Below, piece after piece: positions 7,440-36,347 of a DNA stretch of 64,000 bases; within the stretch, counting starts at the first letter, position 1; every line of letters starts with the position of its first letter. Below the pieces are notes generated by a model, which worked only from the letters and a program-made list of their open reading frames with translations, searched no databases and had not been told where the DNA came from. The stretch comes from Ricordea florida (Eukaryota > Cnidaria > Anthozoa > Corallimorpharia > Ricordeidae): NCBI GenBank assembly GCA_949710005.1, contig OX453275.1:2211973-2275972 (forward strand), in the 5' to 3' direction. The position numbers and the translations under genes were made by a program.

Positions 7440-7476
7440 TCAAAATGTGAAAAATCAGAGTCTTTTCCTTTTGCTT

Positions 7477-8715: not shown

Positions 8716-8795
8716 CTTTTCCCCTTTCAGCAAGAACACAAGTACTAACATCGGACACAAATTCCTCGCTGTAGTAGATAAACACTTTCCAAAAG
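8716..8795 (+). repeat. Inverted partial copy of the Penelope-like element
   Basis: The segment reading CAGCAAGAACACAAGTACTA then ATCGGACACAAATTCCTCGC is the start of the same coding segment seen on the minus strand at 8560-8635, now on the plus strand. A roughly 80-bp spacer of repeated TTAGTGTACTTA lies between. Head-to-head partial copies are typical of Penelope-like insertions. Confidence 0.65.
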
Positions 8796-8799
8796 ACCA

Positions 8800-9690
8800 C
8801 CCGGATGGTTGGGCAGACACGTAACAGTACGGTGCAACACACTTCTCTCTTCAAAACTCATTCAAACTATTCAATACTGCCACTAGCCTCATTCACTATT
8901 CAACATGGCGTCAACCTCTCCATTCTGCCTCCCACTGCTCACACACACCCCCCTCACCCCATATCCCTCCTTCCTCCCTCAAATATACCTGCATATGATT
9001 TGAATAAATTGATCTATCCATCCGTCACCTACTACTGGTTTCCTGTTGATTTAGTTGCCGACCTACCAGTCAATAAGTCTATTTTGGAATGGTGTATCGC
9101 TATTTTGGTTTGGAGTCTCGTATTGAGATATTTTTTCTTTATAAAACTGTTCTTTCGGGCAAAACCTGATTTGTTCTTTAGTAATTTGATTATAATTATT
9201 ACTGGTTTATATCCAGTTCATTTCTTTGGAAGAGTTTCAGTTATAGCAATATTTTTTTTTCATGCTTATGAAACCACATGGCTTTTCTCAGTATTTATTT
9301 CCCTCACTTTTTACAAATTAAAGCTGCATCTATACTATATAACGTATAACACTTTTTTAGCTTGGGCCGGCACAAAAAGCCGTATCGAATAGGCGTTTAG
9401 TTCACACAAGAAACAATGGTTTCGGAGCGATTTTTGTTTCAGTGCGCCGGTCTTTTTCAAGTCAGTCGGAGCCATTTTCGTTCACACTAGGCCGGCACAT
9501 TTTTCATGTCGACTCAAAAGCAGACATAGCTTATAGTAAGCTGAACATCAAATGTCATTCAAAATGATTTTTATTTATATTTATGGACAGCTGACTACGT
9601 TCTGGGGAAGGAACTAAGACTACTCGGGCGGTAACCATCACTGTCTTTTATTCAAATCATTATATTATATCCATAACACTGAAATAGTGA
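8800..9690. other. Non-genic; contains an EndoU intron-1-like fragment
   Basis: The stretch at about 9030-9130 (GTTTCCTGTTGATTTAGTTG and what follows) matches 31725-31850 inside intron 1 of EndoU gene 2. The rest is AT-rich with no supported gene. The 195-residue open frame across it is not credible. Confidence 0.4.
9647..9652 (-). terminator. Polyadenylation signal of EndoU gene 1
   Basis: AATAAA on the minus strand about 50 bases past the stop codon at 9700-9702. Context and distance are suitable for the 3' end. Confidence 0.5.
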
Positions 9691-9699
9691 ACTTGATTT

Positions 9700-15600: not shown

Positions 15601-18600
15601 GACTCTTATACAATAATTTTTTGTATTTTTTATATGGTCTAGTATTTTCTATTTAATATAATTTGTAGCATCATTAGCATTGTATTTATATTTATTAATA
15701 GTATAGAGGGCCACAAGTTTATTAGCCTTAGCTTTTTAGTGTAACCCTCTTAAAATAAAGTCCTCACCTCACTTTTAAACCGTCTTTGAAAAAGTAGAGC
15801 TTATTAGAGATTTGATGCTATAGACGGTGTTCTCATGGAGAGAGTGAGAGAGTGAGAGAGAGAGAGAGAGAGAGAGTGAGTGAGTGAGTGAGTGACACTT
15901 TATTTAAACTCGGAATTCCATCAATTAATATTGGTTTTCATGAAAGCCGAGTAAGATTAAAAATTTAAACAGAGATTAAAAAGTGGGACAAACTATCAAT
16001 AACAAGATAATAACATATCAAAGTCAAAAATATTATTATCTTCCAGTCCTCTCTTGAAGGCTGCAAGAGTTTTAGCCGACTTAATTGAATTAGGCAAGGA
16101 ATTCCACAATTTAGGACCAGCGTAAAGAAAACTCCTTTTCATAAAATCGGTTTTCGGTAATGGTAAATTAATATTTAATTCACTGTTCCTAATATTGTAA
16201 GGATTTCTTGCCTCGACTTTGAAAAATCTGTCAATTAAATAGTTTGGGGCTGCACCAGTAGAAATTTTAAACATTTGGGTGGCCTTATGCTGAGCTCTTC
16301 GGGTTTTTAAATCAGACCATCCAAGTTCCCTTAAAACATCCTCTGAGCTTACATCATAGGCAGCCCTTAAAATAACCCTACCAGCCCTATTCTGTAATTT
16401 TTGTAATCTGGTTGCTAGACCTTTAGATAAATTATCCCATACCAAATCACAATAGTCAAAAGATGGCTGGATAAGGGAATTATAAATAGTTATAAGAGTA
16501 TCATCATTAACAAATTGCCTTATTTGTCTTAAGCCCCCGATTGCAGATGAGACCTTTTTTGCCACATGGTTAATATGAGTGGACCATGATAAACGATCAT
16601 CAATATAAACACCAAGAGATTTAGCAGAGTAGACTCGTTTTATACTTGTATCACCTAATCTGATCTCAGGAGAATAGCCAAGATTGGCGAGATTGTAATT
16701 AGAGCCAATAATCAAAAATTCTGTTTTAGTGGTGTTTAAACTCAATTTGTTTGCTAAGAGCCACTGTCTAATATTTTCCAGGTCATGATTTGTACCATTC
16801 TGTAATTCAAAATAATTTTTACCAGAAACGGTTAAATTAGTGTCATCTGCAAACATTCTTGGGGTTGAGAAATTTAAGCAATTGGGTAAATCATTGATAT
16901 ATATTAAAAATAACAGAGGGCCGAGAATAGATCCTTGAGGAACACCACAAGGGATATCTGAGAACTCCGAGAGACAGCCATTTAAGTAGCATTTTTGCTT
17001 GCGATTAGAGAGATACGAATAAAACCATTTGTGTGCTGTTCCAGAAATACCATACATCTCCAATTTAGCAAGCAAAATGCTATGGTCAACTGTGTCAAAG
17101 GCCTTGGCTAAATCAAGAAAGACAACAGAGTTAAGGAAACCATTGTCAATATTGAAGAACCATTCATTAGTAGCATCTAATAACGAAGTAAGAGTAGAAT
17201 GCAGGGAACGAAACCCAGACTGGCAATTTGATAAAAGGGAATTTACCTTAAGGTAGTCATATAGCTGATTATAAATGATTCTTTCAAAAAGCTTAGCAAT
17301 AACAGAAATGACCGATATAGGTCTGTAATTGTTAAGATCATCAGTGTTATCTTTCTTATGTATTGGGGAGACTTTAGCATACTTCCACTGATCAGGGAAG
17401 ATACCACTCGTTATAGAAGCATTGAAAATTAAGCTTAAAGAATGCGATATTACAGGAGCAGCCTCCTTTAATAAGGCTTTAATCAGGTGAATTGTGAGCT
17501 AACAAATAATCAAATAAGGCGACCATGATTTCTGCTCAGCATGACTGCTGAATATATCTCGTTCTCAAAACACTGGTAGCCCAATACTGACAACAAGGGA
17601 ACTAAGTAACATTACACTGGCTAACGGGGAGACGGAGAACGCATACAGGGGCATTCTAATTAGTCCTGGATACCAGGTTTTTCAAGAACTGTAGCAGTAG
17701 GGCAATTGTGTAAAGTAACAGGAAAATATTCTGAAAGAGCGGACATTTTGGATTTTTAGATTCTCTGTGATGTCACTTCCTGTTATCTGGCTTTAAATTT
17801 TATTTTCCTCTAGCTGCCGAACAGAAAACATGATATTCGTTATTTATTTACGTACAGTCGGTAATTCCACCTCCGTGGCTTGACGTTAATATTACTCTTT
17901 ACTGTACAATGTCAGTGACTTGCTTCTGTCAACAATTTTCAACGACGTACATATGTGAACGAGGAAGTATTTGTTCAAAACGTTCTGTGGATATCTTTAT
18001 GGAAAAGCCACACCACAAGTTTCGCCATTACATAACGGCTCCATGTCTGAATTAACAGCTAGCTCAGGCTATTTACATTTGCCCTGAGAAAGGGCGTGGC
18101 GTCTATATACACACATACCGCTGTGCGTGCTGCTATTATCTGAAAAAGTTTTGTTTTATTCCCGAAAGAATTCATTAAATCGGGATGACTGATAAATGTT
18201 TTTCTTTATATATATTAGTGTCTTTGTGTTACTATTTCCTTCAACCCTTTATTAGTCCATAAACGAAGAACATGAAACGCTTTACTTTTTTCCCGTGCGT
18301 ACACCTTCAAAATCTCACGCTACGCCGTCGTGGAGAATTCTTCGAAGTAGGCAGGGATCGAGAATTCTTCGCTCCGATGTCCGATGCCTAATGAGCACCT
18401 TACCGATGCTGTCTCTATCTAAGGGCCTGTTTACATGGAGGTGGGGACCCCAGGTAGTTGAGGTAACCCGACTAGGTTGGGTAATCCGCCTCTCCATATA
18501 ATTTCTGATTTTTATTTGATCACGATTACATGACAGGTGGGGTAACCCGCGCCGTCTAGGTGGGTTGCCCGTTCTGCTAGGTAGGGTAACCCAGTCTGCT

Positions 18601-20845
18601 AGGTAGGGTAACCCGGTCTGCTAGGTAGGGTCACCCGGTCTGCTAGGTAGGGTAACCCGGTCTGCTAGGTAGGGTCACCCGGTCTGCTAGGTAGGGTAAC
18701 CCGGTCTGCTAGGTAGGGTAACCCGGTCAGCCGGGGTTGCATCAGTGACATGCATTTGCAAGCGCAAAATAATAAAAAAAAAGACACGGCAGTGAAATGT
18801 AGCAGCGAGAGCAGCTAGTGAGAGGAAAAGAACACTGACCAAAATGCGTCGTTCGCCCGCCATTTTCTCTGTTTATGTGCTAGCGATCACGCAGCAACCT
18901 TTAGGAATTTCACCCCGGGAGACGGGGGTTGTAAGTTTGCATGTAAACTGCGGGTTATTCTTCGACCACGGCTAGGCGGGTTACCTCACCTACCTGGGGT
19001 CCCTCACCTCCATGTAAACAGGCCCTAAGAGGCCACTCGTTTAATTTATTTACCTCCAAACTTTGTGAACACGTCTTTCGCAAGTTTTGTTTGACCAGTT
19101 TGCGTAAAACTGAAGAGTGCTGGAATGTTGTTTTCATTGACGTTCATGTCAGTACCGATGATCAGGTTATTTCCCGCCTTGTCCCACATATCTTGACAAA
19201 CATCATCAGGCACATTGATATCCCGACGGACCCGTAGTCCCCTAAGGATGAAAATATCACATAATAAATCATACACTTTAATATCCGACTGTACATTACC
19301 GCTGGTTACTGCCAAAAGGCAGTGTAATTGTTTTACAGACTTTTCTATTTACAGACTGTCACCATTCTCTTGAAATTAAAGCTACTCAACAAGCCGGGTT
19401 CCAGAAAAGCCTATTAGCCCTAAACTATGTATTTAACCCTGAGTTATCAATCGATCAGAGAGCTTAGTGAACTCCAGAGGCTAGCAGGAGATTTCCTTCC
19501 TGCAAAGACTGCCAGCTCACTTACTGACTTGTTATGTCATTTTGTTTCGTTTTTCTTTTTTGTTCCATTAGTTCATAATGAAGCTTGATATCCCATGGCC
19601 AAGTCACTTTTGCGCGAATTATCTTATTATGGTATCCGAATCTTCTCTCTGCTCATGGTCAATTTAACAATATTCTACGAGACCATCTGCCCACCAAGAA
19701 ATATCTTGAAAAACTGACTAGTGTTCATGATCTACTGACTTGTTTACCGAAATACAGATACAAACCCTGACATCATGAAACCTCTCTCATCAAAGAATAT
19801 ATAGTCGTTATGATTCCCGTCATAGCGTTAACAAATTGAAATCATCATGACGTCCATCATATCTTAAATCCAACCAAAAATTCAAGTTTCTCGCTTCTTC
19901 ACAATAATACTAGAAATTTAAAGCGTAATCTTGATGATTTTCAGACGCATGTACTTCATAAAATCGATAATAGATTTAATGTTATCAGTGGGAATAACTG
20001 GCAAGAATTTCAAAAGCCAGTTCCCTTGACTATAATCCTAGTATCCCGGGATATAAATTTAAATACAGCCCAACATCTTTAGCTGCTGGAGGCGTTTGGA
20101 TGTAGTTATTGAAGAAGATCTTAATTATACTATAGTGAATAATAGAAAAGACATCCGAAGATACTTTTCAGGCCTTGTGGATTACAAGCCAACGAGATCT
20201 GTGGGGTTGTTTACCGACAGTACAACTCTCCCGAACGCTTCCAGGAGTATTTTGACCGAACTTTGGAAAAAGCTTATCGCTTGTGATAAATGAATCTAGG
20301 TCTTCAATATAAATCAGGATTTCAATATAAATCTCCTCAGAGTTGAGTCTTGTAATTACTTCTTCAACAGTTCTGCTTTCCTTGCAAAACTTTTCTTCTA
20401 TCCCGACCATCGATAAACCTACGAGATTGTATCGTAATTCTGCTACTCTAATTGACAACATTCTATCCAGGGGCAACAATGTTTCTGATATCAGCGATCA
20501 CTTTACGCTGTTTGGCATTTTTTATTCCTGCATGAAGAGAACCTTTCATCCTAGACATAACTAAAACTTGAGATTATTCCTGCATTTCCGAAACCAAATT
20601 CCATTTCGAATTATCTCAGATTGAGTGGGATTCTATCATCACTGACAATCATAATGCGGATATTGATCGTCCGTTCTCAAGCTTTTTCAACAAACAAACT
20701 TGTTACCAAGCATGCTCCTCTTAACGAGAAGCCAACAAACAAACTTGTTACTAAGCATAACAAAACAACTGAGAAAGTCCACAACTTACCTAGCGTCCAA
20801 CTGGGGAATCAGAATCAAACACGAAAAGATAAGAAATTGCATCAT
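9700..20845 (-). CDS. Secreted EndoU (XendoU/PP11-type) endoribonuclease, gene 1
   Basis: Six exons: 20790-20845, 19054-19241, 14876-15027, 13096-13198, 11460-11575, 9700-9924. All have GT/AG borders and phases 2,1,0,1,0, giving 279 residues and a TAA stop. Exon 1 is a signal peptide (MMQFLIFSCLILIPQLDA). The rest is one EndoU domain of normal size: NNLIIGTDMNVNE (N-terminal part), FLSEILVAGGPVD, WFREY, SGFEHVFVGELRG (catalytic His163), SGFHNWYQLYL (His178), NANKPCSGFFVGTSPAFE (Lys220) and a final TTYP. EndoU enzymes are metal-dependent ribonucleases that cut at uridines, and secretion is inferred from exon 1. Introns hold a LINE, a Harbinger-like MITE, another LINE and a SINE. The first exon and promoter are almost identical to gene 2 while the enzyme body is far diverged. 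Confidence is high for the exons and moderate for the exon 1 join. Confidence 0.87.
9925..11459. other. Last intron of EndoU gene 1
   Basis: No repeat shared with the window and no further exon was recognised in this 1.5 kb intron. Confidence 0.5.
11667..11740 (+). repeat. tRNA-headed SINE fragment in EndoU gene 1 intron
   Basis: GGAGGCACATTAGCGTAGTG then GGCTAGCG has A-box form, and GGTTTCGAGTTCC is a degenerate B box. It resembles the head of the SINE at 36940-37149 (same order of blocks). The 3' limit is not clear. Confidence 0.5.
14179..14270 (+). repeat. Two-copy tandem duplication, about 48 bp
   Basis: GAGGCTCTACCAAAGCGCAG and GAGGCTCTTCTACAGCGCAG each start a diverged unit that ends in TGGTCCGCTRAAR. 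It lies in intron 2-3 of EndoU gene 1. Confidence 0.5.
14570..14637. mobile_element. Short perfect palindrome (foldback MITE type)
   Basis: The arms 14570-14598 and 14609-14637 are exact 29-bp reverse complements (core CCCAGGGTCTTTTCCCTGGC) around a 10-base loop. This is a recurrent short palindrome type that I recall from coral genomes. Confidence 0.65.
15838..15894. repeat. (GAGA/GAGT)n microsatellite
   Basis: Runs of GAGAGT, GAGA and GAGT. It adjoins the 3' end of the minus-strand LINE and is probably its tail. Confidence 0.85.
15996..17497 (-). CDS. LINE ORF2 with intact reverse-transcriptase domain, 5'-truncated
   Basis: A single frame open for about 500 codons. It begins without a start codon at about 17497 (LIKALLKEAAPVISH) and ends at a stop at 15996. 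Reverse-transcriptase blocks in order: KVSPIHKKDNTDDLNNYRPI, QSGFRSLHSTLTSLL, VVFLDLAKAFDTVDHSILL, PCGVPQGSILGPLLFLIYIN, RMFADDTNLTVSG (catalytic FADD), then a C-terminal region ending YAGPKLWNSLPNSIK. Clade looks Jockey/CR1-like. No endonuclease domain is present, so it is a 5'-truncated insertion that could not move alone. With no stop codons across the palm and thumb it must be young. It lies in intron 2 of EndoU gene 1 (between its second and third exons), in the same orientation. Confidence 0.88.
18423..19025. mobile_element. PIF/Harbinger-like MITE with TAA target duplication
   Basis: Left end GGGCCTGTTTACATGGAGGT and right end, reverse-complemented, GGGCCTGTTTACATGGAGGT, with similarity continuing to about 45 bp. 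It is flanked by TAA at 18420-18422 and 19026-19028, a three-base duplication as in PIF/Harbinger. It carries a 22-bp minisatellite. Its right end stops 25 bp short of the splice donor of EndoU gene 1 exon 2. Confidence 0.75.
18574..18728. repeat. 22-bp minisatellite, seven units
   Basis: Unit CTGCTAGGTAGGGTMACCCG plus GT, starting at 18574, 18596, 18618, 18640, 18662, 18684 and 18706. The only regular variation is A or C in GGGTMACC. The unit resembles the sub-terminal sequence of the MITE that contains it. Confidence 0.85.
19560..20780 (+). repeat. Degenerate LINE 5' end and endonuclease, copy B
   Basis: Homologous to 1-720 over its right part. It reads EEDLNYTIVNNRKDIRRYF and RLYRNSATLIDNILSRGN, with frameshifts. 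It lies in intron 1 of EndoU gene 1 and ends only a few bases from the signal-exon donor at 20784-20789. The left part (19580-19770) is the upstream region of the element. Confidence 0.7.
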
Positions 20846-22172
20846 ATTGGATGAGATTCGCTTTATGAGAAAGTGTTGGAGTCTTGACGAGTTCTGGAAG
20901 TGCACGCATTAATATTAGCTTGGTCCTTTTAACATAAGGGTTCATCAATTGTTAAGTACCTCTTAACCCAAGAATTTAACGCAGTTGTAAATTTATATGG
21001 CACTTGTAAATTTATATGGCCATTAGTGGTTAAATTACCCTCTTATCATTTCTAATGCTCGTTCGTCATCCTAATGCTAATTCGATTTCTATGTTGAAAC
21101 GAAGTCTACTTGATTCAAATTGTCATAAATTGATTTAATAAATTGATTCAAGATCAATCCAAAAACGCAATTTGACGTTTACTTTGTAAATAATGTGTGG
21201 TGAGTAATCGGATGTGATCTGCGAAGATTTTTTAGCTAATTCCGAGGATGGTCACCAGCTCTAAGAAAAGCACTCTTGAATAGTTAAGTGCCGCTAATTG
21301 ACGCACAAGAAAAGTCATTGTGTCTATTAATCACGCCACAATATTTAGTTTTTAAGAAAAGGATTTTGGAGAGATTTTCAAGAATGAGCTAGCTAAAATG
21401 ACGTGAGATTTTGCGTTTAGAATTTAATTTGAGTTTTCCTTGATTCAACCAAGAGAAAAAATGGATATCACTTCTCAGTGGATGGATAATCAAGTGGACT
21501 CTTGTAGTTGTTAAGTCTGATACATTCCTTCATACCTTTAGAACCGATTCTAGATTACAATAGTTGAGATAGAGATGAGAAAACCAAAGAAACTCGTTTA
21601 GTTTTTAATGGTGCAACGAATTTAACCTTATCGTGATCGACTTTGTTTGCTAGGCACTCATCTTCAAGTGTGTGGCAAGAGTATTTTAAGAGTGTTTATC
21701 GATAGTTTGTACTTACCGTCAAAAGTATGTAATGTTTGGTGTAGGTTTGCTGTTGTGAATACAAGTTAATCAGTCTTACTACACAGGAAATATACTTAGC
21801 TGATGTCTACGAGTTTTTAAAATTAGGGGTTGTTGGGACCTATAATAAACCGAAGAAACACCAAAATCCGAAATTAATTTCGAGCAAAACCGAAACAGCC
21901 ACTGAACACAAAACCAAAGATTTACATTCATCAGTCCCAATTTCCAAAACTCTAATGGTCCCTAATGGATTTCATATTGATGGCACTGGGGGCATGCATA
22001 CTCGGATCTCGTTTAGTCTCTATTCTTTAGGAAAATTCTCAAACTCCTACATTGAATCGCAATTAGAGGGATTCGGCAATCACAAAAAACTATCCTATAG
22101 CTGTGAAAATCACCCCTGAAATCACACTAAAATCTAAATTACGCACTGAAGTTTAAGAATTTAAATGTGAAT
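20783..22172 (-). repeat. Promoter/signal-exon cassette, copy B
   Basis: Supplies exon 1 and upstream DNA of EndoU gene 1. Aligned by eye it is nearly the same as copies A and C over about 1.4 kb of non-coding DNA. It lacks the 5112-5310 part of copy A, where the LINE fragment now joins. Confidence 0.8.
20991..21017 (-). promoter_or_regulatory. Tandem TATA boxes of EndoU gene 1
   Basis: CCATATAAATTTAC occurs twice, 19 bp apart, 145-170 bp upstream of the ATG at 20845. A transcription start near 20960 is inferred, not seen. Confidence 0.5.
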
Positions 22173-22214
22173 ATGATGCGATTGACTGATCCTTATATTA
22201 TGCGATTGACTGAT

Positions 22215-23020
22215 TATATATACAAAGCATCCTTTGACAAAGCCGCCCCTCCATACCATGAAAGCACTCGACGAAAGCGGATACAGCTACACCCTGCACA
22301 ACGAACCAAGCGCATCTAACAAGCGAAAAAACCGTCAACGCAGTAACATCCTGTGGTACAACCTCCCCTTTCAGCAAGAACACAAGTACTAACATCGGAC
22401 ACAAATTCCTCGCTCTAGTAGATAAGCACTTCCCAAAGGACCGCGAGCTCCGCAAAATCTTCAACCGCAACACCATCAAGATCAGTTACAGCTGCATGAA
22501 CAACACTAAACAAATAATCGACAACCATAATAAACGCATCTTAACCACATCTACACGAACCAACGATGCCGCCGCCGCTAACACTAAAGAAAGAAAGACA
22601 TGCAACTGCCGAAAAAAGAACAATTGCCCGCTCTACAGAAACTGCCTGCAACCATCGGTAATCTACCAAGACACCGTTACGCGCAAAGACAACAACACGT
22701 CCCAAACCTACATCGGACATACGGAAAACAACTTCAAAACAAGATACAGAAACCACACCGCATCTTTCCGCCACGCTAAACACACTCAGAAACTCCACCG
22801 AACTCAGCAAACACATGTGGACCCTTAAAGACAACGATATTGAACACTTTATTTTCTGGCGAATCCTGTCTTCAAACTCGCCATATAACAGCTCAAGCAA
22901 AACATGTAACCTCTCCCTCAAAGAAAAATTCCTAATAATCTGCCGACCCAAACTATCCACGCTAAACAAACGTAATGAGCTTGTGTCTTCTTGCCGCCAA
23001 CTATGGTGGAAGATTTTGAG
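22215..23020 (+). pseudogene. Penelope-like element C-terminal fragment, copy B
   Basis: Reads ALDESGYSYTLHNEPSASNK, then ILWYN, FNRNTIKISYSCMNNTKQI, the Cys cluster CNCRKKNNCPLY, TYIGHTENNFKTRYRNHTAS and ends NELVSSCR, where repeat R begins. A one-base shift before the Cys region and a 2-bp insertion after HAKH break the frame. Copy C shares the 2-bp insertion, so B and C descend from one already broken copy. Confidence 0.75.
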
Positions 23021-23029
23021 TAAAACCAC

Positions 23030-24784
23030 AAACGATCAAACGGACCGCCAAATGATGTGTTACAGTTTTGTGCAAGCGATGCATTTTACCATGAACTTAC
23101 CATGACAGTAGATGGTCAGGGGTCTACCCAAGTCATACCTACTCAAACAGTGTGGAGTTGACCTAAATAAATTGTGTCATATTGACCCATTGCAGGGTAA
23201 ATACACTGGTGCCAAAGTCAGCTCAGTTGCAGCAGCAGTATTTCAGCAACACATCCAAGACTACTGACCTTTATCAGATCTAGAATCCCACATTTGACAC
23301 AGCTAATGACACTATCAAAATCAAAATCAATGGGAATGGAGCACGAATGACTAGAAATTCAAACTTAATTCTTCTTTCTTTTTCCGTTTTAAAAACTGGT
23401 GAATCAGTGATGTCTGCTAAAGGTAACAGAACAGTTTCTATTGTTAATGGCTCTGAAAGTTAATATGAAACTTTCAAAGAAGCCTGATTTGGTGAAATCT
23501 TTGAAGAAACTAACACTATGATTTCTTCTGCAACTGACTGTGAACAACCAAGAAATGAATGTTGACCTCTTTCTAGGAGGGGACGACAAATTTATTTTGC
23601 TAATGGTTGGACTTAAGAGTGCCACATCCATCTATGGGTGTTCATGATGTAAAGTACATAAAAAAGATCGCTGAAACATTGGGGAACACTTTTATTGCTA
23701 CAAGAAAACACCCCGGTCCAGGTCATTCAAAGAAATTTGTGAAATGAGTTCAAATTTCACTGCTGTGAAAAAAACCAGGAGCCCCTGAAAAAAACCCATT
23801 CTCAATATTGAATTTGACCACATAGTTGCATTTGTTCATGAGCTGCACCTGATGCTGAGAGTAACATACATTTTAACTGAAAATAGGATAACAGAGTGTA
23901 TTAACTGGGATAGGAAAGATGATATTAGCCGGCAACGAGGAGAACCACCGGGACTGCATCTTTAAAAGGTTGTCCAAGGTATCAGATTGTGTGGGGTGTC
24001 TTTTGGTGTTTGGGAGCAGCGCAATACTGATAGAAAGGCAAGTGGGAAAAATGATTGGACCAGCCTATTGGGAGCTTACAAGAAAATTATTTTAAATACC
24101 CTCCCAGACAAAATGAAAAGCTTTTTGCGACCAGAAACATCTGATGTTGTCGTCAAGATATGGAAAAACGTTACTACAGTTTTGTCAACAACTGGGCACC
24201 TGAGGGAGACCCCACAACTTTTTTCAGCCAAGCAAAAGAATGGATCAAGCGTTTCTTAGAGCTGAGTGGTAAAAGGGACCTCTTTTAAGTACATGCACTT
24301 TCAAGCGCCATATTTCAAACATAAGCTGTTGTTTATTTGTAAAGAGACAGCAGCAATGTACACTTTATTTCTAGCGGCGTGACAGTTGTTTACGCCATTA
24401 GACTGTTGTATTTACCAAGATATTTTTACCATATCTTTTACGACCCAAAAGACGATTCCATGTTGTCTCTTATTAATAAAAGGTTCAAATATCATTTGAA
24501 ATAGGTAGCTTGCTTCGCAAAGCACTCGCATTTGGCACCCCCTCCCCAAAATTCTTATGGCTACAATTCCGAAGTAAATATTTTTGCCAGTATGAAAACA
24601 ATAGCAATAATTTTGTTATTTGGCTTTCCCCTGCCTTGTTCCCTGCGGACAACCCTGGGATTACCTTCCCACTACCTTGCCTCTTCTTTACGGACAAGTG
24701 GACAAGCGTACGGCATTTGCTTTGACCATGAAAAGTGGCGTGTCGTGCACGCGCCTTTAGGGCTCTGCTATCAGTAGGACTACA
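23030..24784 (+). pseudogene. Repeat R, copy B: degenerate transposon-type protein gene
   Basis: Stop-broken frames carry blocks of a widespread invertebrate multicopy protein: FYHELTMTVDG, YLLKQCGVDLNKLC, FKTGESVMSAKGNRTVSIVN, NVDLFLGGDDKFILLMVGL, then GVWEQRNTDRKASGKNDWTS, LPDKMKSFLRPETSDVVVKI and ETPQ. I recall this block order from many uncharacterised invertebrate proteins but cannot name a Pfam family. No introns are visible. Other copies lie at 34480-36347, 54951-56101 and 62620-64000. Confidence 0.6.
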
Positions 24785-26844
24785 GGTGGCTCGATAGGCA
24801 AAAAAAGGCCATTTTTGTTACAATTATTTGAACCCAAAAACACTCAATAGATCCATGGCTGTTCAACATTTGTATTGTACGTTCTTTAAACATTTTATGT
24901 GTGGAATCATGAACGAATACCTCACATTCCTGCGGAACCACACCCAATATACTGACCACACCCATTTCAAGCTGGTCCAAAACTAGGTTTACGCCAAAGA
25001 CGATATCTCTACAACAAAAAATGCTACACCCTTGAGATTTTGCTTGCAGAACAACAATACTCAGAGCTGTGCAACCTACCACTCTAAGCTCATCAGTGCA
25101 CATATTGAAAGTTTTATCATGCTGTAAAATAATTGCTCAAAAATATGCATAATGGATTCCAATTAAAATCTTATAACTCTCCAGTTATTCACTAGAATCT
25201 CACCAAAGTGGTAGGTTGCACAGCTCTGTTAATGTCCAAAACACCCTGAAAATTTCAGCCTGTTCTCTAAAATAGTTTTGGAGAAATCACATTTCTAAGC
25301 ATGAAAAACAGTCAAAATGCAGGTATTGAGAAAAATGGGCACAAAAAGTGCAAACATTTGTTCAGTTATTTTTAGACACATCAGAAGGCTCCTGGTCCAT
25401 ATGCAGGACCTTCTCTTGCCTCTTATGTCTCAGTGAAGCCCTTCTTGTAGTTTCGGAGTTGTCTGCGCCTTTTCTTGGATGCTTCTCCGCTTTTACGACG
25501 CGAATGGTGAATTCTGTCATGGTCCAGCTTCATACAGGCTTTCCTATAGTGATAACCTGGATCAATTCCGAGGGCTTCTAAAGTGGTCAGGAGTGTTTGT
25601 GAGCCATCATTGAAGTGGCCAACTGCTAGGAAGGTTGCCAGCTCTACAGTTGGTGTACTGGCATGCATTTCCTTGGTTGCCCGTTGCCAAATGAGCGCGT
25701 TGATGGCCTCGTTTTGATTTTGGGTGCCACCATGAAGGCATGTTGAAAGTAGACTTTCGCCACTCAGTGCTTCAAACGTTGGATAAATTGCATCAGCAAT
25801 AGCTTCTGGAATGGGCGATTCATGGACATAATCTGCTGTTCCCTTTGAAAGCCGCACCAAGATTCCTCACCAGGAGGACAGAGATCATGATCGGGTTCTT
25901 CATCAATTGATTTTGAATGATGCCAAATGGTCATGACAGCATTTTGCTAAAACAGCCCTCCTGTTCACCTCGAACGCTTTGCTACTGTTGGCCTTGGCTG
26001 AGGTGTAAAATGACTTTTGAAAAGAGCACTTTCAAGTCGTACACTTTAAAATAAGAAGGGAGGCAAGGCCCATCTCTGATTTCTTGTCCTCGTCGAAAAC
26101 AATATGCCCTTGTTTACACAAACAACGACTCGAACACAACGGCAAGAATGGCGATATCAATGAACCGGAATCCACTTACGTGTTCCACTTCATCTTCATT
26201 GCTCTCTTCTGTTGAAGAATCACTTGATTCTGCCTTCATCTTACGGACGGACGCTGGTAAACTCTTGAAACTCTCTGCTTCCTCAGTTTCCACGTGCTCC
26301 TCGCCACTACTCGAGTCTCCACTCACTTCGGGTGAAGCCTCCTTTTTTGAGCGTTCGGTTTCTATCTTTTCTGCTTTCTTTTGGTACTGATTCCCCTTAA
26401 ATGTCTTTTTCTTCCTTGGGATACTTCGAATTTTTTTTGGGAGGCATATTCTTCTAAATTTCCGACCAAACAATCTTCTACGAACAGATGACAACAACGT
26501 TTTACTTTCGTCCCAGAAAGGACGTCATATAACCGTCAGCTATTGTGCCCCTTTGAAAGCTCAAACTAGTAACTAGGCTCCTATAGGCTTTTAGATCACT
26601 CGTTCTCGATTTGGGAGAAAATCTGACAATAAATACCGATTCTTTTCACCAAAAACGACGCGTAAACAATGCTGGTTTCCATAGCAACTATTTACAAGGC
26701 TTAGGAAAAGTTAAAATTTCTTGATTAAATCGAAGGGTGTATAGCAAAAAACTAACTTTCCTTCAAAGTACACTAACTAAACAAGTTAAAATTGCTTTTT
26801 CTAAAAATATGAAATTTTTTACTTTTTTTCCCTTTCGGGCCACC
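24785..26844 (-). mobile_element. Internally deleted Mutator-like DNA transposon
   Basis: The ends GGTGGCTCGATAGGCAAAAA and, reverse-complemented, GGTGGCCCGAAAGGGAAAAA are imperfect inverted repeats of about 23 bp. On the minus strand 26114-26497 gives a basic N terminus ending SGFRFIDIAILAVVFESL, and FEVNRRAVLAKC follows in another frame. After a deletion, CPPGEESWCGFQRGTADY leads into the frame 25423-25860 with CLHGGTQNQNEAINALIWQR and LGIDPGYHY. This order matches the Mutator-like transposase proteins of invertebrates as I recall them. The central catalytic part is missing, so it is non-autonomous. No clear target duplication was found. In the duplicated gene 3 copy the same spot (56104) lacks the element. 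Confidence 0.65.
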
Positions 26845-29800
26845 TTATAAGAACAATTCAGATAATTGGTTCATGCATCATTGACAAATGAAATGAATCA
26901 AAAAGTAATAACGCAAATAGAAGCATTGCAAAAAAAAGGCAACTTTTAATATATTTAACAATGACCTAGATGACAAGTCCACAAGACAACGGATTTCAAA
27001 TTTATTCTGCTTTTACTAGTTATTTTACAGTTAAATATAATGCTTTCTTTGAACTACATTCTTGTTTTGTCTGTTACTTGTAAACGTCGTTTATCCATGT
27101 AAATTCTCACTACTTTGGATACACAGTTTTAGCCTGTGCTGAACCTGCTGATGCTCGGCATACTTGTATCGTCAGCGGATTGCCGTTGATTGTACATTTG
27201 CATGTATCACAATATGTTGCTGCAGGCATGCTAAAAAAGCAGGCTGAAAAGATAGCAATGTCGAACGCAGGACTGGTACCAACAAAGAAGCTGGAACGCC
27301 GTTTGGTTGCCACTCCTCCACCTGCTAGCTTCCAATTGAAACCTACTTCTATCTTGGAAGGCTGTCATAATATATGCATCCAGAAAAGAAAAAAAAAGCA
27401 AATCAGCAAAACGGAATATTAACTCTGATAAGTGGAAAGTACAAGGTGAGAAAACAAAATTTAGTATTAAAGATTAGATGGCCGCAAAAATGAAAAGAAA
27501 CTTGAAGAAACGCCTTTGGCTTCACTAAGGAAACAAAATAAAATAAAGAATCTTTTCTTCCCACAAATTTAGAGTTTATGTCACAATTCTGCATCGGTCT
27601 GCTATAAGTCTCTGTACAAAGTTAGAGTATTCAGACAATAAATTTCAACAATTATGCATGCATGTGTTACGGTGAATCAAATCCGCGCAGTGCTTAAGGC
27701 TTGATTTTTAAATCTCCTTTCTCTTTTGATGGATTTTACAAGTAACTGGTGATGGCACAGGTTGTTTTGAAAAAAAAAAATTCTAACGAAACTTACCGAT
27801 AATTCGGTGCGGCGTGTGGTCTTTAAAGATAGAAATGACTGAAGAGTAAATTTTGTGCCAGTGCGGCCCCTCGTAAGCTTGGCCATTAAGATATTAAAAT
27901 TTATCACATGACAGTCACTGTATACGTAAACTATATTCAGAATTCGTGAGCTCAGTGAAAGACTGATTTGAAGGATCGAAACAGGATATTCCTATGATAG
28001 CTCGCTATTCATTCAGGAGTTTTGCATTGACTATTGGGAGAAATAGTGATACTGTTCGTAATCTTCATTTAAAAGGAAAACAATTGGCGCTCAAGTTGAA
28101 TCTCTCCGGATCATTCGAGACTATTCCTGGTCAACACTTGGAAAACGTTCGCGCTTTGGGGACCAGAAATGAGGGAATCTGATTGGTTGGCATTGGTTAT
28201 TGTCATTAGGACCGCCTCCGTCGCGTAATAAATGTATGTACGTAATACCTGACAACACTTACGTTATTTGGCGCGTAATGTCCCACGTTGTTGATTGTGA
28301 AACGGCCTGCTGTAATACCAAGATGCATTGCGTACCAGCTGTGCATTCCTTTGAGAGTTGTTCCACGCAGCTCACCTGTTACGTCATTCAAATAGCACTA
28401 TCAATACCTTAATAAGTAATTAATAAACACGCTTTCAGGTTAAAGGCGCTTTATTTCTAAACTAAAATAAGTCGATTGTTAAAGTCTGCAGGGTTGTAGC
28501 GAGAACGCGGGAGTTTTTCGTGGCGATTGTTGAGGTCTCAATGGTCTTATACTTTCCAGTTGGCAAGGGTGGAACCAGTTTACTTTGTTCGGGGAAATGA
28601 AAAAGGTGCAAAGGTGCAAAGGTCCAAACAGTCAGTTCCTACAGATTGTCTTATTAACCGTGGGGTTTGCTTCTATTGCCTGTATGTCGCATTTTGATTC
28701 AAAGCCATGGAATTGAAATACGCCCACACTAAAGTAATGAAAACAGAATATCCCTACCGACAAAAGTGTGTTCAAAGCCTGACGAAGTTACAGTACCAAC
28801 AGTGTACGGTGTAAACCAAGCAGTCCTGAGGCTGTTTTTAAACAACTGAAGAGTCTGTTTAGGTATAAAGTATGTCATCAGTGCAGTGAAGCAGTCCTTA
28901 ACCTGAGTCATACAATGTGGTTCTACCTGTTACCCTTTCACTCCCACAATGAAACCTTGAGTCATACAATGTGGTTCTGCCTTTAGACATTCTAACTCCC
29001 GGAGTCGAACCTTGAGTTACACTGCACTGTTAAGACGTTTGAAACGTTTGCCCCAAGAGAAAGCCTTTGATTCGTAAATACATGTTAGATGGTGGTTCTA
29101 TCTTCGTATTGCAGAAATCAACCATAATTTGCAATATGGCTTCTTTTTATGGTCTACTTCAACCCATTTATTCCCAAAGTGATGGCTGTGCAAATTCTCC
29201 GTACAGTATCAATACGCTGTCAGGCGAAGAGCTGATGAGACAGTGAGAATTAAGAAAACTATCGACTCATACATAACATTCAGCTAAGAACAAATTTTCT
29301 CGACTAGCTTATAAGGAAGTGCATTACACTCACTAAGAAGAATTGCTACTCTACCCCTACTCCAAGAATAACCAGTTTTCTTCTAAAATGAGTTATTAAG
29401 ACTAATTCGTAGGAGAGCCCCTCCCAGGAGGGGAGGGAGGGGGGTACATGCTCCCATGTTTCCTTAATGTGTTTGTATTTTCTCCCGAGTCACGCATTAA
29501 TAAAATCACCTGTTCCCTGAAATGTTTTAAGCCCATGTTCCCATGTTACCTAGTTCCCTGAAAATAACTTGGAAATATTCCCTGTTTCCTGAACATAAAT
29601 GCTTCTGTTCCCTTGTACTATAAATCTCCTTGGAGAGGTTCATACGTTTACTCTAGCAGGAAGATGTCCAGAGTTGTTCAGGTACTGAAAAGCTACATCC
29701 ACGGGTCCTGGTGAGACGCAAATGGCATCCAGAAAATCAGTTATTCTTGCTGGCTGTGTAGCAGCTGCGCCACCAGGCAAGTAGGTCGCTAAAAGTGCTG

Positions 29801-31660
29801 ATTATAAACAGAGAAATTCCACGTTAATTAAAAAATTCGATGCTACTGATAATTGGGAGTTAATCGTAGATCAGGGAGTGTGTTTAACATAGTTGAGAGG
29901 AGCTGATGTTAAGCGTTACTGTGGGTAAAAAAAGTATTAAGCAGTAAAGAGGGTAGGATTTTTTAGATTTCTACAGTACAAAACTTGAATACCCGAACTG
30001 AATCTTCTTTATGGATCCCTTTTTAAATCCCATTTACCTTTCACCTTAAATCACCCTTCACCTTATCCCACCCCCACCCCACCCCCCTAAAGAAAGATCT
30101 TGGTCCACAGATCTACAACCCAATCAACACAATAGACGAGCGTTTCCACGTGAGTAAGTGGTCTAAAGCACAGCAACGGCCCCTGAGAAAAAATTCTTCA
30201 GGGGGTGAGAGGGGGCGAAGTTTTGGTGGGATAAATTTGCGTCAACCAAAGAAAATCAGCAAATTGAAATTTCTACATCCACACATGTGCATAGAACACC
30301 GACGCAAGAAGTCGGCTTTATAGCGGTTCGTTCAGGAAAATCTAGACCGCTCGGAGAACCATCAGTCGTACTAGCTAAGCTACATAGTAAGTCCTGAACT
30401 AATGTACTGGTTGAAAGTTTCGGCGTGGTTTCGCTGAACAATGTGCATTACCTGAAAAATTTCCATACGCGGGTGCTGCAAGCTTGGCAGTAGCTGATGG
30501 AGCTAAAGTGAAGGGACTTGGTCGAGTGGCGGGGTTAACAGTGATATCTGTTCCAACCTGCAGGTTACTTGTCGTTGCGTTATATATGTTGGTACAATCA
30601 ACGGATGGCAAAGGGATAGCTCGACGACGTCGATCGCCACTTGATTTAGCACAAAATAACATATGTAATTCAATCAGTGACTTTATAGAAGATGCTAATA
30701 TTCATTGCAATTTAAGTACAATTGTCCACCATTAAAAAGAGCTGGTGAAAATTTTGTTTTCAGAAACTGTTAGAAACGGGGGCTGTGACGGTAAGTCTTG
30801 CCGTTGTCGGGACTAATGGGGTAAACTGGACTAAGTAGGGAATGAGCTGTATGGGGAACTCTTTTGGGAGAGAGCCGTCAATGCAGAGTTGTGCCACACA
30901 TACGTTTACCCTAAATACTCTTTGATCATGGACTAATCATTATAAGCTAGAAAAAATCCGCTGCTGTGTTTTGCTCAAAAAGGGAATTCGAATATAATTT
31001 TTGTGACTGTGCTAATGCCAGACCCAGTACGAAAGAACGTTGCTCCTGACAAACAACTTGAACAAACAAGGAAAAACATCATAGAAAAATATTGCAAGAA
31101 CAAAAGAGTAACAAATGAAAATACAGAATACATCCAGAGATGGCATAAATTGCAAACATATCAAGAAGGTAACGAAAAACTTGAGCATTTTTTAATAGGC
31201 AGTGTTGTCGTCTTGGAGTTAGGAAATGCTACAAGGAATTGACTTGACGAGAGTTCTTCTTCACTAATTACTGTATGAATTTTTAAGGCCTGAAGAAGAG
31301 GTTTTGTATAATGGGGGTTAATGGCTACTAACGAATTCAAGAAAGAGGCACGCCGTTTAAGCTGCATGTACCATTCTACCTTTTAAAATTCCGGGTGATT
31401 CTATGGCCATTTGGTATAAGAGTATTTTGGGAAAAAAAAACAGCTTCTAAACGGTCATTCCTTCCCATCGTGATATTTGTAATATTTTCAATTTTTGCGA
31501 ATTTTTTTAATTGTCAGTGTTCGTGCTACAAATTAAATTAAATTACAAATTGAATTACTCTTGGAAGCGTAAGTCTTGGAGTGGTCGTGTGGTATTTAAT
31601 AAGTGTTGTAACTGGTTAAGTTGTTTGTTTTTAGGGGTACCCATCACAGTATATATATGG
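26845..31660. repeat. Segmental duplication, copy 1 (EndoU gene 2 unit)
   Basis: Collinear with 56105-62430 through all exons 2-6 and introns at about 90 percent identity or more by eye. Copy 2 carries an extra MITE (60198-60620) and about 1 kb of further DNA. Confidence 0.85.
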
Positions 31661-32241
31661 TATTCATGAATTAGTCTTCGGTGAAAGTGATTTGTTTTAT
31701 CTCGACAGTTTAAGTGCCATAATGGTTTTCTGTTGATTTATTCACCGACATATCAGTCAATAAGTCCTATATGAGAATGGCGTATCGCTGATTTTGTTTT
31801 AGGAGTCTAGGATATTGTGAAATGTTTTCTTTGTGCTATTTGTTTTACTAAACGGTGTGGTGCTAACTTTTTTATCTAGTGGATCACACCATGTAGACTA
31901 GTGTAACCATTCCCAGGAAAGCTACTGCCGGGATATTTTTCCGTTGGAGCTTTGAAATATCAAAAATGAGACCTGGGGAAAATAAACTACGCGAATTTCA
32001 AATCCCGGGAGATTTAAGTCATAAATAACAGTAGCTTTTTAACGAAAGAAAATTGGAAGGGTCGTAAAATTGTCCCAGGGTCATCTGAGTTCGTAATCGA
32101 AACGTTAGGTTTGCATGCGTCCATCAGGTACATTAATAAAACGACAAAGAAGACTATTACAGCAAAAAAACAAAAAACAACTTACCTAGCGTCCAACTGG
32201 GGAATCAGAATCAAACACGAAAAGATAAGAAATTGCATCAT
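27110..32241 (-). CDS. Secreted EndoU (XendoU/PP11-type) endoribonuclease, gene 2
   Basis: Six exons: 32186-32241, 30452-30639, 29652-29797, 28758-28854, 28263-28375, 27110-27361. Phases match gene 1 at every junction and lengths are nearly the same (56, 188, 146, 97, 113, 252), giving 283 residues. Exon 1 is the same signal peptide as gene 1. The domain reads NLQVGTDITVNPATRP, FLDAICVSPGPVD, SSGFEHTFVGELRG (His159), KGMHSWYAMHLG (His174), TKRRSSFFVGTSPAFD (Lys220), LTIQV and a final VYPK. The two His and the Lys of EndoU are kept, though GFHNW has become GMHSW. Extra Cys residues (CDTCKC) suggest disulphides in a secreted enzyme. Upstream of the exon 2 acceptor the frame has a stop not seen in gene 3, which supports the chosen acceptor at 30639. 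Confidence 0.85.
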
Positions 32242-33632
32242 ATTGGACGGGACTGATTCGCCTTTGTGAGAAAAAGTCGGAGTCTTGACGAGTTCTGGAT
32301 TGATCTGCAACAGAAGTGCAGTGCAGGAATTAGCTTGTTCCTTATAACTTAAGGGTTCATCAATTGTTAAGTACCTCTTAACACAAAAATTTAACGCAGT
32401 TGTAAATTTATATGGCACTTGTAAATTTATATGGCCATTAGTTGTTGAATTACCCTCTTATCATTTCTAATGCTCGTTTGTCATCCTAATGCTAATTCAT
32501 TTGCTATGTCGAAACGAAATCTACTTGATTTAAATTGTCATATATTGATTTAGCTTGATCAACTGCCGATCAGAAGGCTCTTTTGTAAACAGTTAAGATC
32601 AATCGAAAAACGCAATTTGACGTTTACTTTGTAAATAATGTGTGGTGAGTAATCGGATGTGACCTGCGAAGATTTCAGTTTTAACTAATTCCGAGGATGG
32701 TCACCAGTTGTAAGAAAAGCACTCTCGAAAAGTTAAGTGCAGCTAATTAACGCACCAGAAAAGTCATTGTGTCTATTAATCACGCCTCAATGTTTAGTTT
32801 TTAAGAAAAGGATTTTGGAGAGATTTTCAAGAATGAGCTAGCTAAAATGATTTGAGATGTTGCGTTTAGAATTTAATTTGAGTTCTCCATGATAATTTGA
32901 GTTTTTCAGTCAAGACAAAAAAACGGCAATCACTTCTCAGTGGATAGATAATCAAGTGGACTCTTGTAGTTGTCAAATCTGGTACATTCCTTCATACTTT
33001 TAGAACCGATTCTAGAGATTACAATAGTTGAGATAGAGACGAGAAAACCAAAGAAACTTGTTTCGTTTTCAATGCGGCCACGAATTCAACCTTATCATGA
33101 TCGACTTTGTTTGCTAGGCACTCATCTTTAAGTGAGGGGCAAGAGTATTTTAAGAGTGTTTATCGATAGTTTGTACTTACCGTCAAAAGTATGTAATGTT
33201 TGGTGTAGGTTTGCTGTTGTGAATACAAGTTAATCAGTTTTACTACACAGGAAATATACTTAGCTGATGTCTACGAGTTTTTAAAAATAGGGGGCGTTGG
33301 TACCTATGATAAACCGAAGAAACGCCAAAACCCGAAATTAATTTCGAACAAAACCGAAACAGCCACTGAACACAAAACCAAAGATTTACATTCATCCCAA
33401 TTTCCAAAACTCTAATGGTCCCTAATGGATTTCATATTGATGGCATTGGGGGCATGCATACTCGGATCTCGTTTAGTCTCTATTCTTTAGAAAAATTCTC
33501 AAACTCCTACATTGAATCGCAATTACAGGGATTCGGCGATCACAAAAAACTATCCTATAGCTGTGAAAATCACCCCTGAAATCACACTAAAATCTAAATT
33601 ACGCACTGAAGTTTAAGAATTTAAATGTGAAT
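31980..33632 (-). repeat. Promoter/signal-exon cassette, copy C
   Basis: Supplies exon 1 and the upstream region of EndoU gene 2. Shares its left limit (ATAAACTACGCGAARTTCAA) with copy A and its right join to the Penelope-like fragment with copy B. Confidence 0.8.
32406..32432 (-). promoter_or_regulatory. Tandem TATA boxes of EndoU gene 2
   Basis: Two CCATATAAATTTAC boxes 19 bp apart, 165-190 bp upstream of the ATG at 32241, as in cassettes A and B. Confidence 0.5.
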
Positions 33633-33674
33633 ATGATGCGATTGACTGATCCTTATATTATGCGATTGACTGAT

Positions 33675-34470
33675 TATATATACAAAGCATCCTTTGACCA
33701 AGCCGCCCCTCCATACCATGAAAGCACTCGACGAAAGCGGATACAGCTACACCCTGCACAACGAACCAAGCGCACCTAACAAGCGAAAAAACCGTCAACG
33801 CAGTAACATCCTGTGATACAACCTCCCCTTTCAGCAAGAACACAAGTACTAACATCGGACACAAATTCCTCGCTCTAGTAGATAAGTACTTCCCAAAGGA
33901 CCGCGAGCTCCGCAAAATCTTCAACCGCAACACCATCAAGATCAGTTACAGCTGCATGAACAACACTAAACAAATAATCGACAACCATAATAAACGCATC
34001 TTAACCACATCTACACGAACCAACGATGCCGCCGCCGCTAACACTAAAGAAAGAAAGAGATGCAACTGCCGACAAAAGAACAATTGTCCGCTCAACGAAA
34101 ACTGCCTACAACCATCGGTAATCTGCCAAGCCACCGTTTAGCGCAAAGACAACAACACGTCCCAAACCTACATCGGACATACGGAAAACGACTTCAAAAC
34201 AAGATACAGAAACCACACCGCACCTTTCCGCCACGCTAAACACACTCAGAAACTCCACCGAACTCAGCAAACACATGTGGACCCTTAAAGACAACGATAT
34301 TGAACACTTTATTTTCTGGCGAATCCTGTCTTCAAACTCGCCATATAACAGCTCAAGCAAAACATGTAACCTCTCCCTCAAAGAAAAATTCCTAATAATC
34401 TGCCGACCCGAACTATCCACGCTAAAAAAACGTAATGAGCTTGTGTCTTCTTGCCGCCAACTATGGTGGA
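33675..34470 (+). pseudogene. Penelope-like element C-terminal fragment, copy C
   Basis: Same limits and joins as copy B. It has extra defects: TGG to TGA near 33815 and a TAG after QAT at 34138. The 2-bp insertion after HAKH is shared with B. It runs straight into repeat R. Confidence 0.75.
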
Positions 34471-34479
34471 AGATGTTGG

Positions 34480-36347
34480 GGAAAACCACAAACGATCAAA
34501 CAGACCGCCAAATGATGTGTTACAGTTTTGTGCAAGCGATGCATTTTACCATGAACTTACCATGACAGTAGATGGTCAGGGGTCTACCCAAGTCATACCT
34601 ACTCAAACAGTGTGGAGTTGACCTAAATAAATTGTGTCAGATTGACCCATTGCAGGGTAAATACACTGGTGCCAAAGTCAGCTCAGTTGCAGCAGTATTT
34701 CAGCAACACATCCAAGACTACTGACCTTTATCAGATCTAGAATCCCACATTTGACACAGCTAATGACACTATTCAAATCAAAATCAATGGGAATGGAGCA
34801 CGAATGACTAGAAATTCAAACTTAATTCTTCTTTTTTTTTCCGTTTTAAAAACTGGTGAATCCGTGATGTCTGCTAAAGGTAACAGAACAGTTTCTATTG
34901 TTAATGGCTCTGAAAGTTAATATGAAACTTTCAAAGAAGCCTGATTTGGTGAAATCTTTGAAGAAACTAACACTATGATTTCTTCTGCAACTGACTGTGA
35001 ACAACCAAGAAATGAATGTTGACCTCTTTCTAGGAGGGGACGACAAATTTATTTTGCTAATGGTTGGACTTAAGGGGGCAGTCTAGTCAAATTTCAGAGA
35101 AATGTTCTAAGCATCTTTAAAACAACAGAGCTCTGTAACGATTTTATAGAAAACAATGAAATTTTCACCAGAGCATCCCTTCAGGATGACCTACACAGGA
35201 AGGTGTAATTTGAGATGAAGTAGTTAAAAGATAGTTAATGATTAACTCCTGAATTTGACCTTATCAGCTGAGGGTTGCCGTCTGCCCCACATACTTGTTA
35301 TGTGCAGAATTCATTGAAAATGAATTCCACTTTCTATCCATAACTAACATGGATTGAACTATGATCCTATGGAGCGGTTTCGGGGTAAGGCCATAAGTGT
35401 TCCCATGGCAACCAAATCCTTCCAAATATGGGTGTAGAAAAGATATATCCTCAAGTATTTAACTTAATCCAATTTCGCTCCATAGGATCATAGTTTACAT
35501 CCTAAAGGCAGTCTGTGCCAAATTTCACAGCAATTGGTCATATACTTAAGCAAAAAATAGTTAGGGGGAGATGCCTACTTCCGGAAAAAGGCAAATTTGA
35601 GAAAAATGCCCTTAAAGTTGGCACAAATTTAAACTTTTCCTTAACCGTTTCCATGGCAACCGATCGCCATTGGCAGATTACATCACGAAAATCGCTTTTA
35701 TCAGCTTTCACAGGTCAATTTATGTGAAAAAGACTTCGAAAACTTAAAGTAGATGGGTTAAACTATAGTTTTAAGTAAAAATATAAAAAATGGTTGGATG
35801 ACCGAAAATTAACAAAAAATCTGACTAGACGGCCCCCTTAAGAGTGCCACATCCATCTTTGCGTGTTCATGATGTAAAGTACATAAAAAAGATCGCTGAA
35901 ACATTGGGGAACACTTTTATTGCTACAAGAAAACACCCCTGTCCAGGTCATTCAAAGAAATTTGTGAAATGAGTTCAAATTTCACTGCTGTGAAAAAAAC
36001 CAGGAGCCCCTGAAAAAAACCCATTCTCAATATTGAATTTGACCACATAGTTGCATTTGTTCATGAGCTGCACCTGATGCTGAGAGTAACATACATTTTA
36101 ACTGAAAATATGATAACAGAGTGTATTAACTGGGATAGGAAAGATGATATTAGCCGGCAACGAGGAGAACCACCGGGACTGCATCTTTAAAAGGTTGTCC
36201 AAGGTATCAGATCATGTGGGGTGTCTTTTGGTGTTTGGGAGCAGCGCAATACTGATGGAAAGGCAAGTGGGAAGAATGATTGGACCAGCCTATTGGGAGC
36301 TGACAAGAAAATTCTTTTAAATACCCTCCCAGACAAAATGAAGAGCT
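34480..36347 (+). pseudogene. Repeat R, copy C, interrupted by a TTAA MITE
   Basis: Same degenerate protein gene as 23030-24784, with the same stops, cut off at 36347 inside LPDKMKS. A 764-bp MITE sits in it at 35074-35837. From 35085 on it is almost identical to 54194-55455. Confidence 0.65.
35074..35837. mobile_element. TTAA-duplicating MITE (Kolobok/piggyBac type), complete copy
   Basis: Termini GGGGGCAGTCTAGTCA and, reverse-complemented, GGGGGCCGTCTAGTCA, with TTAA on both sides (35070-35073 and 35838-35841). The empty site GGACTTAAGAGTG is present in repeat R copy B near 23610, and a similar one in copy D near 63226, proving the borders. It is non-coding. An inner hairpin is formed by CTATGATCCTATGGAGCG and its complement. 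GG-starting ends with TTAA favour Kolobok over piggyBac, but no transposase is present to decide. Confidence 0.85.

Follow-up and report, generated by a model that had tools for sequence, protein, structure and literature searches.

A probable fusion gene formed by deletion within a tandem array of EndoU ribonuclease genes in Ricordea florida

Introduction

How do two enzyme genes that parted long ago come to stand behind almost the same promoter and first exon? The question is raised by a 64,000-nucleotide stretch of the Ricordea florida genome (contig OX453275.1, here C4, positions 2211973-2275972; the window in what follows). Within it, two neighbouring genes of the EndoU ribonuclease family, gene 1 and gene 2, are each preceded by a cassette made up of a promoter region and a signal-peptide exon. 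An earlier note on this DNA explained the pair by recent copying or conversion of the cassette between old paralogs, so that promoter and secretion signal were swapped through a phase-2 intron. We consider it very probable that gene 2 is instead a fusion gene, which arose by a deletion within a tandem array of secreted EndoU ribonuclease genes. It appears to have lost the use of its own start and to have taken that of a distantly related neighbour.

The EndoU array and its two gene types

The window was joined with ten surrounding stretches into a 163.9-kb map, over which negative coordinates and those above 64000 extend the window coordinates. A six-frame search of the 537.8-Mb genome for the EndoU family (PF09412) gave 21 exon matches, of which 17 form one minus-strand array at C4 2.169-2.296 Mb (nine last exons and eight other exons) and the remaining four belong to one distant gene on C6. 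The array holds at least nine EndoU genes, with bodies of two main types: A (gene 0, gene 1 and U3A) and B (U1B, gene 2, gene 3, U3B and B2179). These eight were modelled; the ninth, which is more distant (last exon at C4:2169295), was scanned only for exons and a signal exon. All eight modelled genes read open, and exon 1 ends in phase 2 in each. Splice sites are canonical in seven of them; the B2179 model has a non-AG acceptor at exon 4 and is hence uncertain there. The genes that begin or lie in the window are as follows.

5324-5379, minus strand: exon 1 of gene 0 (A type), within cassette A; exons 2-6 lie to the left of the window start
20790..20845, minus strand: exon 1 of gene 1, MMQFLIFSCLILIPQLDA, phase 2
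9700..19241, minus strand: exons 2-6 of gene 1, A-type EndoU body (19054-19241, 14876-15027, 13096-13198, 11460-11575, 9700-9924)
32186..32241, minus strand: exon 1 of gene 2, from the A-type cassette, phase 2
27110..30639, minus strand: exons 2-6 of gene 2, B-type EndoU body (30452-30639, 29652-29797, 28758-28854, 28263-28375, 27110-27361)
56384..61952, minus strand: gene 3, B type, open frame, with its native first exon at 61900-61952 (MLKFFVTFLICFQLMDA)

Genes 1 and 2 each have six exons with GT/AG sites; gene 1 gives an open protein of 279 amino acids with its exon 1, and gene 2 one of 283 amino acids with the cassette exon 1. Both exceed the PF09412 cut-off of 32.3 bits (145.2 for gene 1 and 114.4 for gene 2). 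Alignment to the EndoU chain 2c1w shows that both keep the two histidines and the lysine, H162, H178 and K224 of XendoU, which we take to be the catalytic residues. In all eight modelled genes a short arginine-rich stretch follows directly behind the signal peptide (RGLRVRR, RGDRVRR; SGDRRRR in gene 2); it looks like a furin-type cleavage site.

The two types of body are old. A and B bodies share 39.8-42% of their amino acids, with a proportion of synonymous differences (pS) of 0.70-0.75, compared with a pS of 0-0.064 within a type (0.19-0.21 for the exception, B2179). Over the 254 codons of exons 2-6, gene 1 and gene 2 are 39.8% identical in amino acids, with a pS of 0.70 and a synonymous divergence (dS) of about 2.0, which is saturated.

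The cassette is the ordinary start of A-type genes

Four copies of the cassette are found, three of them in the window.

5121..6756, minus strand: cassette A, promoter region and first exon of gene 0
20781..22182, minus strand: cassette B, with the promoter region and exon 1 of the A-type gene 1
31839..33642, minus strand: cassette C, which now precedes gene 2; comprises an A-type promoter region, the signal exon and the beginning of A-type intron 1
C4:2302276-2304260: cassette D, a fourth and more diverged copy, beyond the window
22150..23617: stretch upstream of cassette B; over about 1.47 kb it is 97.9% identical to 33610..35074, upstream of cassette C

From the distal end to the exon-1 donor, cassettes B and C agree at 1293 of 1389 aligned bases (93.1%); the other pairs give 94.4% (A-B), 92.0% (A-C) and 81-82% (D with A, B or C). 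A single BLAST alignment of B with C runs over 2907 columns at 93.5%. Exon 1 is identical at all 56 nucleotides among cassettes A, B and C, ends AG/GTAAGT and is in phase 2. The contrast drawn earlier between near-identical cassettes and strongly diverged bodies is thus borne out, and the bodies of genes 1 and 2, saturated at synonymous sites, must have parted long before cassettes that remain 93.1% identical.

The likeness of B and C is uneven. It reaches 98% in the two most distal 200-column windows and falls to 84-88% in the pair of windows next to the exon; A and B agree there at 97-99%. Further upstream, a second match (35837-36348 to 23612-24123) is again 97.9% identical. Since identity is 98% distally and beyond but 84-88% near the exon, the best-preserved shared DNA lies mostly outside the supposed cassette unit, and by this comparison the term near-identical would be more apt for the distal part of the cassette, and for what lies beyond, than for the proximal promoter.

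All three A-type genes start with the cassette exon (MMQFLIFSCLILIPQLDA, or MMHFLVFLCLILIPQLDA in U3A): A genes ordinarily have the cassette as their promoter and first exon. The proposed swap of promoter and signal through a phase-2 intron therefore holds in part. Gene 2 does have an A-type promoter region and signal, but gene 1 is not a recipient, the cassette being the normal A start in three of three A genes. Cassettes A-C have two CATATAAATTTACAA elements each, and D has one altered copy. In cassette D the TATA-like element is thus single as well as altered (CATACAAG), and on this ground U3A may be under different control.

A search of the whole genome with cassette B gave 34 matches (these counts are lower bounds). 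Cassette B itself, cassettes A (91%) and C (89%) at full length and three pieces of D (77-88%) all lie in the EndoU array. The other 28 matches are at most 314 bp long, 66-82% identical and confined to the distal 360 bp. The suggestion that the cassette is a high-copy transposon is rejected within the limits of this search, as full-length dispersed copies were not found genome-wide.

Remains of both partners upstream of gene 2

What lies between cassette C and gene 2 bears most directly on how the two came together.

31131..31188, minus strand: relic of gene 2's own B-type first exon, MLKFFVTFLICLQFMPSLD; ATG and signal codons present, splice donor lost
31271..31279, minus strand: remnant of a TATA-like element, TTCATACAG, where the other four B genes have TTTATAAA
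31720..31831, about 110 bp, minus strand: fossil of an A gene's 3' flank, between the relic and cassette C; 31720-31832 is 81.4% identical to 9033-9140 behind gene 1
31831..31839: putative fusion junction between A-gene 3' flank (left) and A-type intron 1 (right)
31833..31927: one unit of a dispersed tandem repeat, bordering the junction; spaced at about 106 bp on several chromosomes

B-type genes have a first exon of their own, which is MLKFF-like, differs from the cassette exon and is intact in four of the five (U1B, gene 3, U3B and B2179). It begins with MLKFFVTFLICFQ in U1B, gene 3 and U3B, reads MFNFFITFLICLQFVSAVDA in B2179, and ends in phase 2 in all four. In a scan of the B genes for signal exons, gene 2 was the only one without a native exon carrying a phase-2 donor. 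The donor CCCG/GTGAAG is kept in all of the other four and changed in gene 2. The TATA-like octamer TTTATAAA stands 91-97 bp before the ATG in the four; at 91 bp gene 2 has TTCATACA.

With B2179 as the outgroup, changes around the relic exon can be polarised. Those derived in gene 2 number 0 at 49 comparable exon sites, 7 at 130 sites upstream (two of them in the TATA element, as we read the alignment) and 5 at 26 sites just after the exon. The group of U1B, gene 3 and U3B has 2 derived changes in the exon, 8 upstream and 0 just after the exon.

Next to the relic stands the A-type fossil. Positions 31343-31831 align with 79189-79645 (77.6%) in one alignment that crosses the upstream edge of the B unit into A 3' flank, and 31374-31830 likewise aligns with -11586..-11163 (77.2%), from B upstream DNA into the DNA behind an A gene. 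From 31833-31839 the match switches to A-type intron 1 (90170 onward in U3A; in gene 0, 5121 onward from 31981). In U3, an intact unit, about 10.5 kb that include A exons 2-6 separate the points that match the two sides of the junction (C4:2291617 and 2302142). The full order of B body, native B exon 1, A 3' flank, A body and A cassette is kept in two units, at -17292..6756 and 73456..92291. Upstream of cassette C lies DNA of the kind that precedes the A-type gene 1, and no match to an A body was found in 33600-37000. In order and orientation, the gene 2 locus is thus like an A-B unit that lacks the A body, and both partners have left remains at the junction: the 3' flank of an A gene and a native B exon relic beside A intron 1.

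This arrangement speaks against copying or conversion of the cassette to a place before an old paralog, as the earlier note had it. Cassette C is separated from gene 2 by an A 3' flank and by gene 2's disabled first exon, as would be the case if an upstream A gene had lost its body by deletion.

A model of fusion by deletion

The ancestral unit would have read, in transcription order, A promoter and A signal exon, A body, B promoter and B signal exon, B body. The deletion of some 10 kb between A intron 1 and a point past the 3' end of the A gene would have removed A exons 2-6 and left the A promoter and signal exon upstream of the B gene. Since the B gene's own exon is a first exon, it should lack a splice acceptor, and a transcript from the A promoter could therefore join its phase-2 signal exon directly to B exon 2 with the frame kept. 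Gene 2's own exon 1 would remain as a donorless relic in the intron. At the exon join gene 2 has S where the other four B genes have R. With cassette C in use, the B-type enzyme of gene 2 would bear an A-type signal peptide, presumably leading to secretion, and its expression might follow that of the A genes.

Gene 3 has what looks like another deletion. Its B upstream DNA stops at 62505; from 62614 the sequence matches 34466, which lies beyond an A promoter. An A gene and its cassette would be gone there, and the native B start retained.

Probable later exchanges

The history of gene 2 probably did not end with the deletion. Within its intron 1 lies a sharp breakpoint of the kind foreseen earlier.

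30749..30773: change point in gene 2 intron 1, 110-134 bp before exon 2

On the 5' side of this point gene 2 is about 16% diverged from the other B copies, and in the body 4-5%; among U1B, gene 3 and U3B the 5' side differs by 1.5-3.2%. In the comparison with U3B, twice the log-likelihood gain of the change point reaches 148; in 200 shuffles it never exceeded 17.6. The 5' part of gene 2 is probably of an older lineage, with the body exchanged or homogenised later. Faster neutral decay as the sole cause of the 16% divergence is disfavoured by the derived changes at the 130 upstream sites, 7 in gene 2 and 8 in the other group, and by the abruptness of the change.

Cassettes A-C are also mosaic. 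Of 24 informative sites, 11 join B with C, 12 join A with B and one joins A with C; the ten most distal all join B with C, and 12 of the other 14 join A with B. As large a difference in mean position was never reached in 10000 label shuffles. Within the third of the cassette closest to the exon, C differs from the other two at 25 sites, A at 2 and B at 2; within the distal third the counts are 36 for A, 11 for B and 13 for C. Cassette D, 18% diverged from A-C, precedes an A body only 1-9% from other A bodies, a few poorly aligned windows excepted.

Three observations (the unequal ages of gene 2's body and 5' side, a diverged cassette D before a close A body, and the mosaic cassettes A-C) suggest a more general but tentative view, to which we give less than even chances. 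Intron 1 might be a standing exchange point, so that promoter with signal and enzyme body have separate genealogies and have been re-paired repeatedly. If true, this would be a slow combinatorial system that places secreted ribonucleases under different controls.

Weighing the alternatives

Several points count against the fusion by deletion or its consequences. The deletion is read from the sister units, and the use of cassette C by gene 2 is presumed from the sequence. The different ages of gene 2's 5' side and body require at least one further exchange, and the polarised site counts behind the argument from the relic are small. Strong constraint on the gene 2 protein is not demonstrated either: nonsynonymous divergence (dN) is about equal to dS among recent copies (0.038 and 0.047 for gene 2 and U1B). 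Similarly, dN is near or above dS in several pairs of genes 0, 2 and 3 with their close copies, as in gene 2 and gene 3 (0.064 and 0.044), a pattern that may reflect relaxed or diversifying selection.

It is in function rather than history that the best-surviving alternative differs. Gene 2 could be dead or unexpressed and cassette C a mere leftover of the deleted A gene, which is compatible with the same deletion. The lost native donor, the altered TATA element and the approach of dN to dS point this way; the open frame of 283 amino acids, the canonical splice sites, the matching phase and the retained catalytic positions make it unlikely.

Copying or conversion of the promoter and signal exon from an A gene to a place upstream of gene 2 is improbable. 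The mosaic cassettes indicate that exchange between cassette copies does seem to occur, and the intron 1 change point parts old 5' DNA from a young body, but an insert should have target DNA on both sides. Cassette C has A 3' flank downstream and A-type upstream DNA upstream, and its identity to B is greater distally and beyond (98%) than by the exon (84-88%).

Unequal crossing-over between two units, with breaks in A intron 1 and behind the 3' end of an A gene, would give the same junction, and its chances seem to us marginally lower still. The repeat that borders the junction may have prompted it: the junction lies at the edge of a repeat unit which is in tandem on several chromosomes (40 of 1420 candidates were scored) and is also present in A intron 1 of U3A. 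In the intact units, however, the A 3' flank showed no copy of the repeat, so that homologous pairing through it is unsupported. The end product is that of a deletion, and sequence alone hardly separates the two.

That the cassette is a mobile element which incidentally carries an ATG can be dismissed for practical purposes: weak dispersed matches (66-82%) occur in the distal 360 bp, and B and C each have a repeat-like stretch upstream of them, but the genome-wide search, whose counts are lower bounds, gave only three full-length copies and the diverged D, all in the array at A-type starts or at the fused gene 2. A two-domain fusion or read-through of A and B bodies was ruled out, as the last exon of gene 1 has its own stop and the other four B genes have their own signal exons.

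Other elements of the array and window

A weak extra EndoU last-exon match of 24 residues lies at C4 about 2177399-2177470 (window -34573..-34502) and is perhaps part of a tenth gene or a remnant. Three copies of a repeat, 95-98% alike, lie at 22364-23000, 33828-34460 and, inverted, 8001-8628; the translation looks to us like part of a Penelope-like element, and no Pfam family was found in two frames from the copy at 22.3-23.1 kb. Inside gene 1 intron 2, an open frame of 500 amino acids with a reverse transcriptase domain (PF00078) occupies 15999-17498 on the minus strand, and at 49375-50684 on the plus strand two overlapping frames match consecutive parts of Transposase_21 (PF02992). A 78-bp tandem repeat at 39023-39406 has 4.9 copies with 98% matches. 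The most alike long pair in the self-comparison of the window is 35085-36348 with 54194-55457 (1.26 kb, 99.7%). About 2 kb behind gene 2 (24786-26848) is missing at the matching place behind gene 3 (56104-56107), which implies an insertion or a deletion. A tRNA scan of the window found none.

Significance

The locus offers a well-documented replacement of promoter and secretion signal in an animal-like genome. A new start, a disabled old start, the fossil of a deleted gene and two undeleted sister units are all found within one array. The shared phase-2 first intron is what lets a deletion yield an in-frame fusion, and the gene 2 locus allows a direct test of whether a bypassed first exon decays. 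Since intron 1 holds an exchange breakpoint, trees of promoters and of bodies must be made separately in such families. No description of EndoU gene arrays in corals or other cnidarians was found among the papers listed, as judged by titles and the beginnings of abstracts.

Comparison with known systems

Chimeric genes formed by deletion in a tandem array are an already known class, and the interest of gene 2 lies mainly in the completeness of its fossils. The tandem Sdic cluster of Drosophila melanogaster arose by a duplication and then a deletion that fused neighbouring genes (PMC3395120). It resembles the EndoU locus in its tandem setting, in fusion by deletion, and in that the coding part of one partner is driven by regulatory DNA which the other supplied in part. 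That account describes unrelated partners and a promoter that arose new from a piece of exon and intron (PMC3395120). In the EndoU case, both partners are paralogs, a ready-made promoter and signal exon would have been adopted, and the replaced first exon is still visible.

Recombination between neighbouring paralogs also puts one enzyme under the control of another in the CYP11B1/CYP11B2 chimera of glucocorticoid-remediable aldosteronism, a disease allele described as the result of unequal crossing-over between highly homologous genes (PMC7994620). At the EndoU locus the paralogs are about 40% identical in protein, the breaks fall in flanking DNA and in intron 1, and the assembly itself carries the fusion. 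The part exchanged in the CYP11B1/CYP11B2 chimera is the control region.

One promoter region and signal sequence before different downstream sequence is also seen in a Schistosoma japonicum family, in which a shared core promoter and signal sequence are dispersed over 34 contigs in 18 scaffolds and are tied to repeats (PMC3434034). The EndoU array differs in having four cassette copies, by counts that are lower bounds, in one array rather than at many loci, and in placing them before homologous enzyme bodies.

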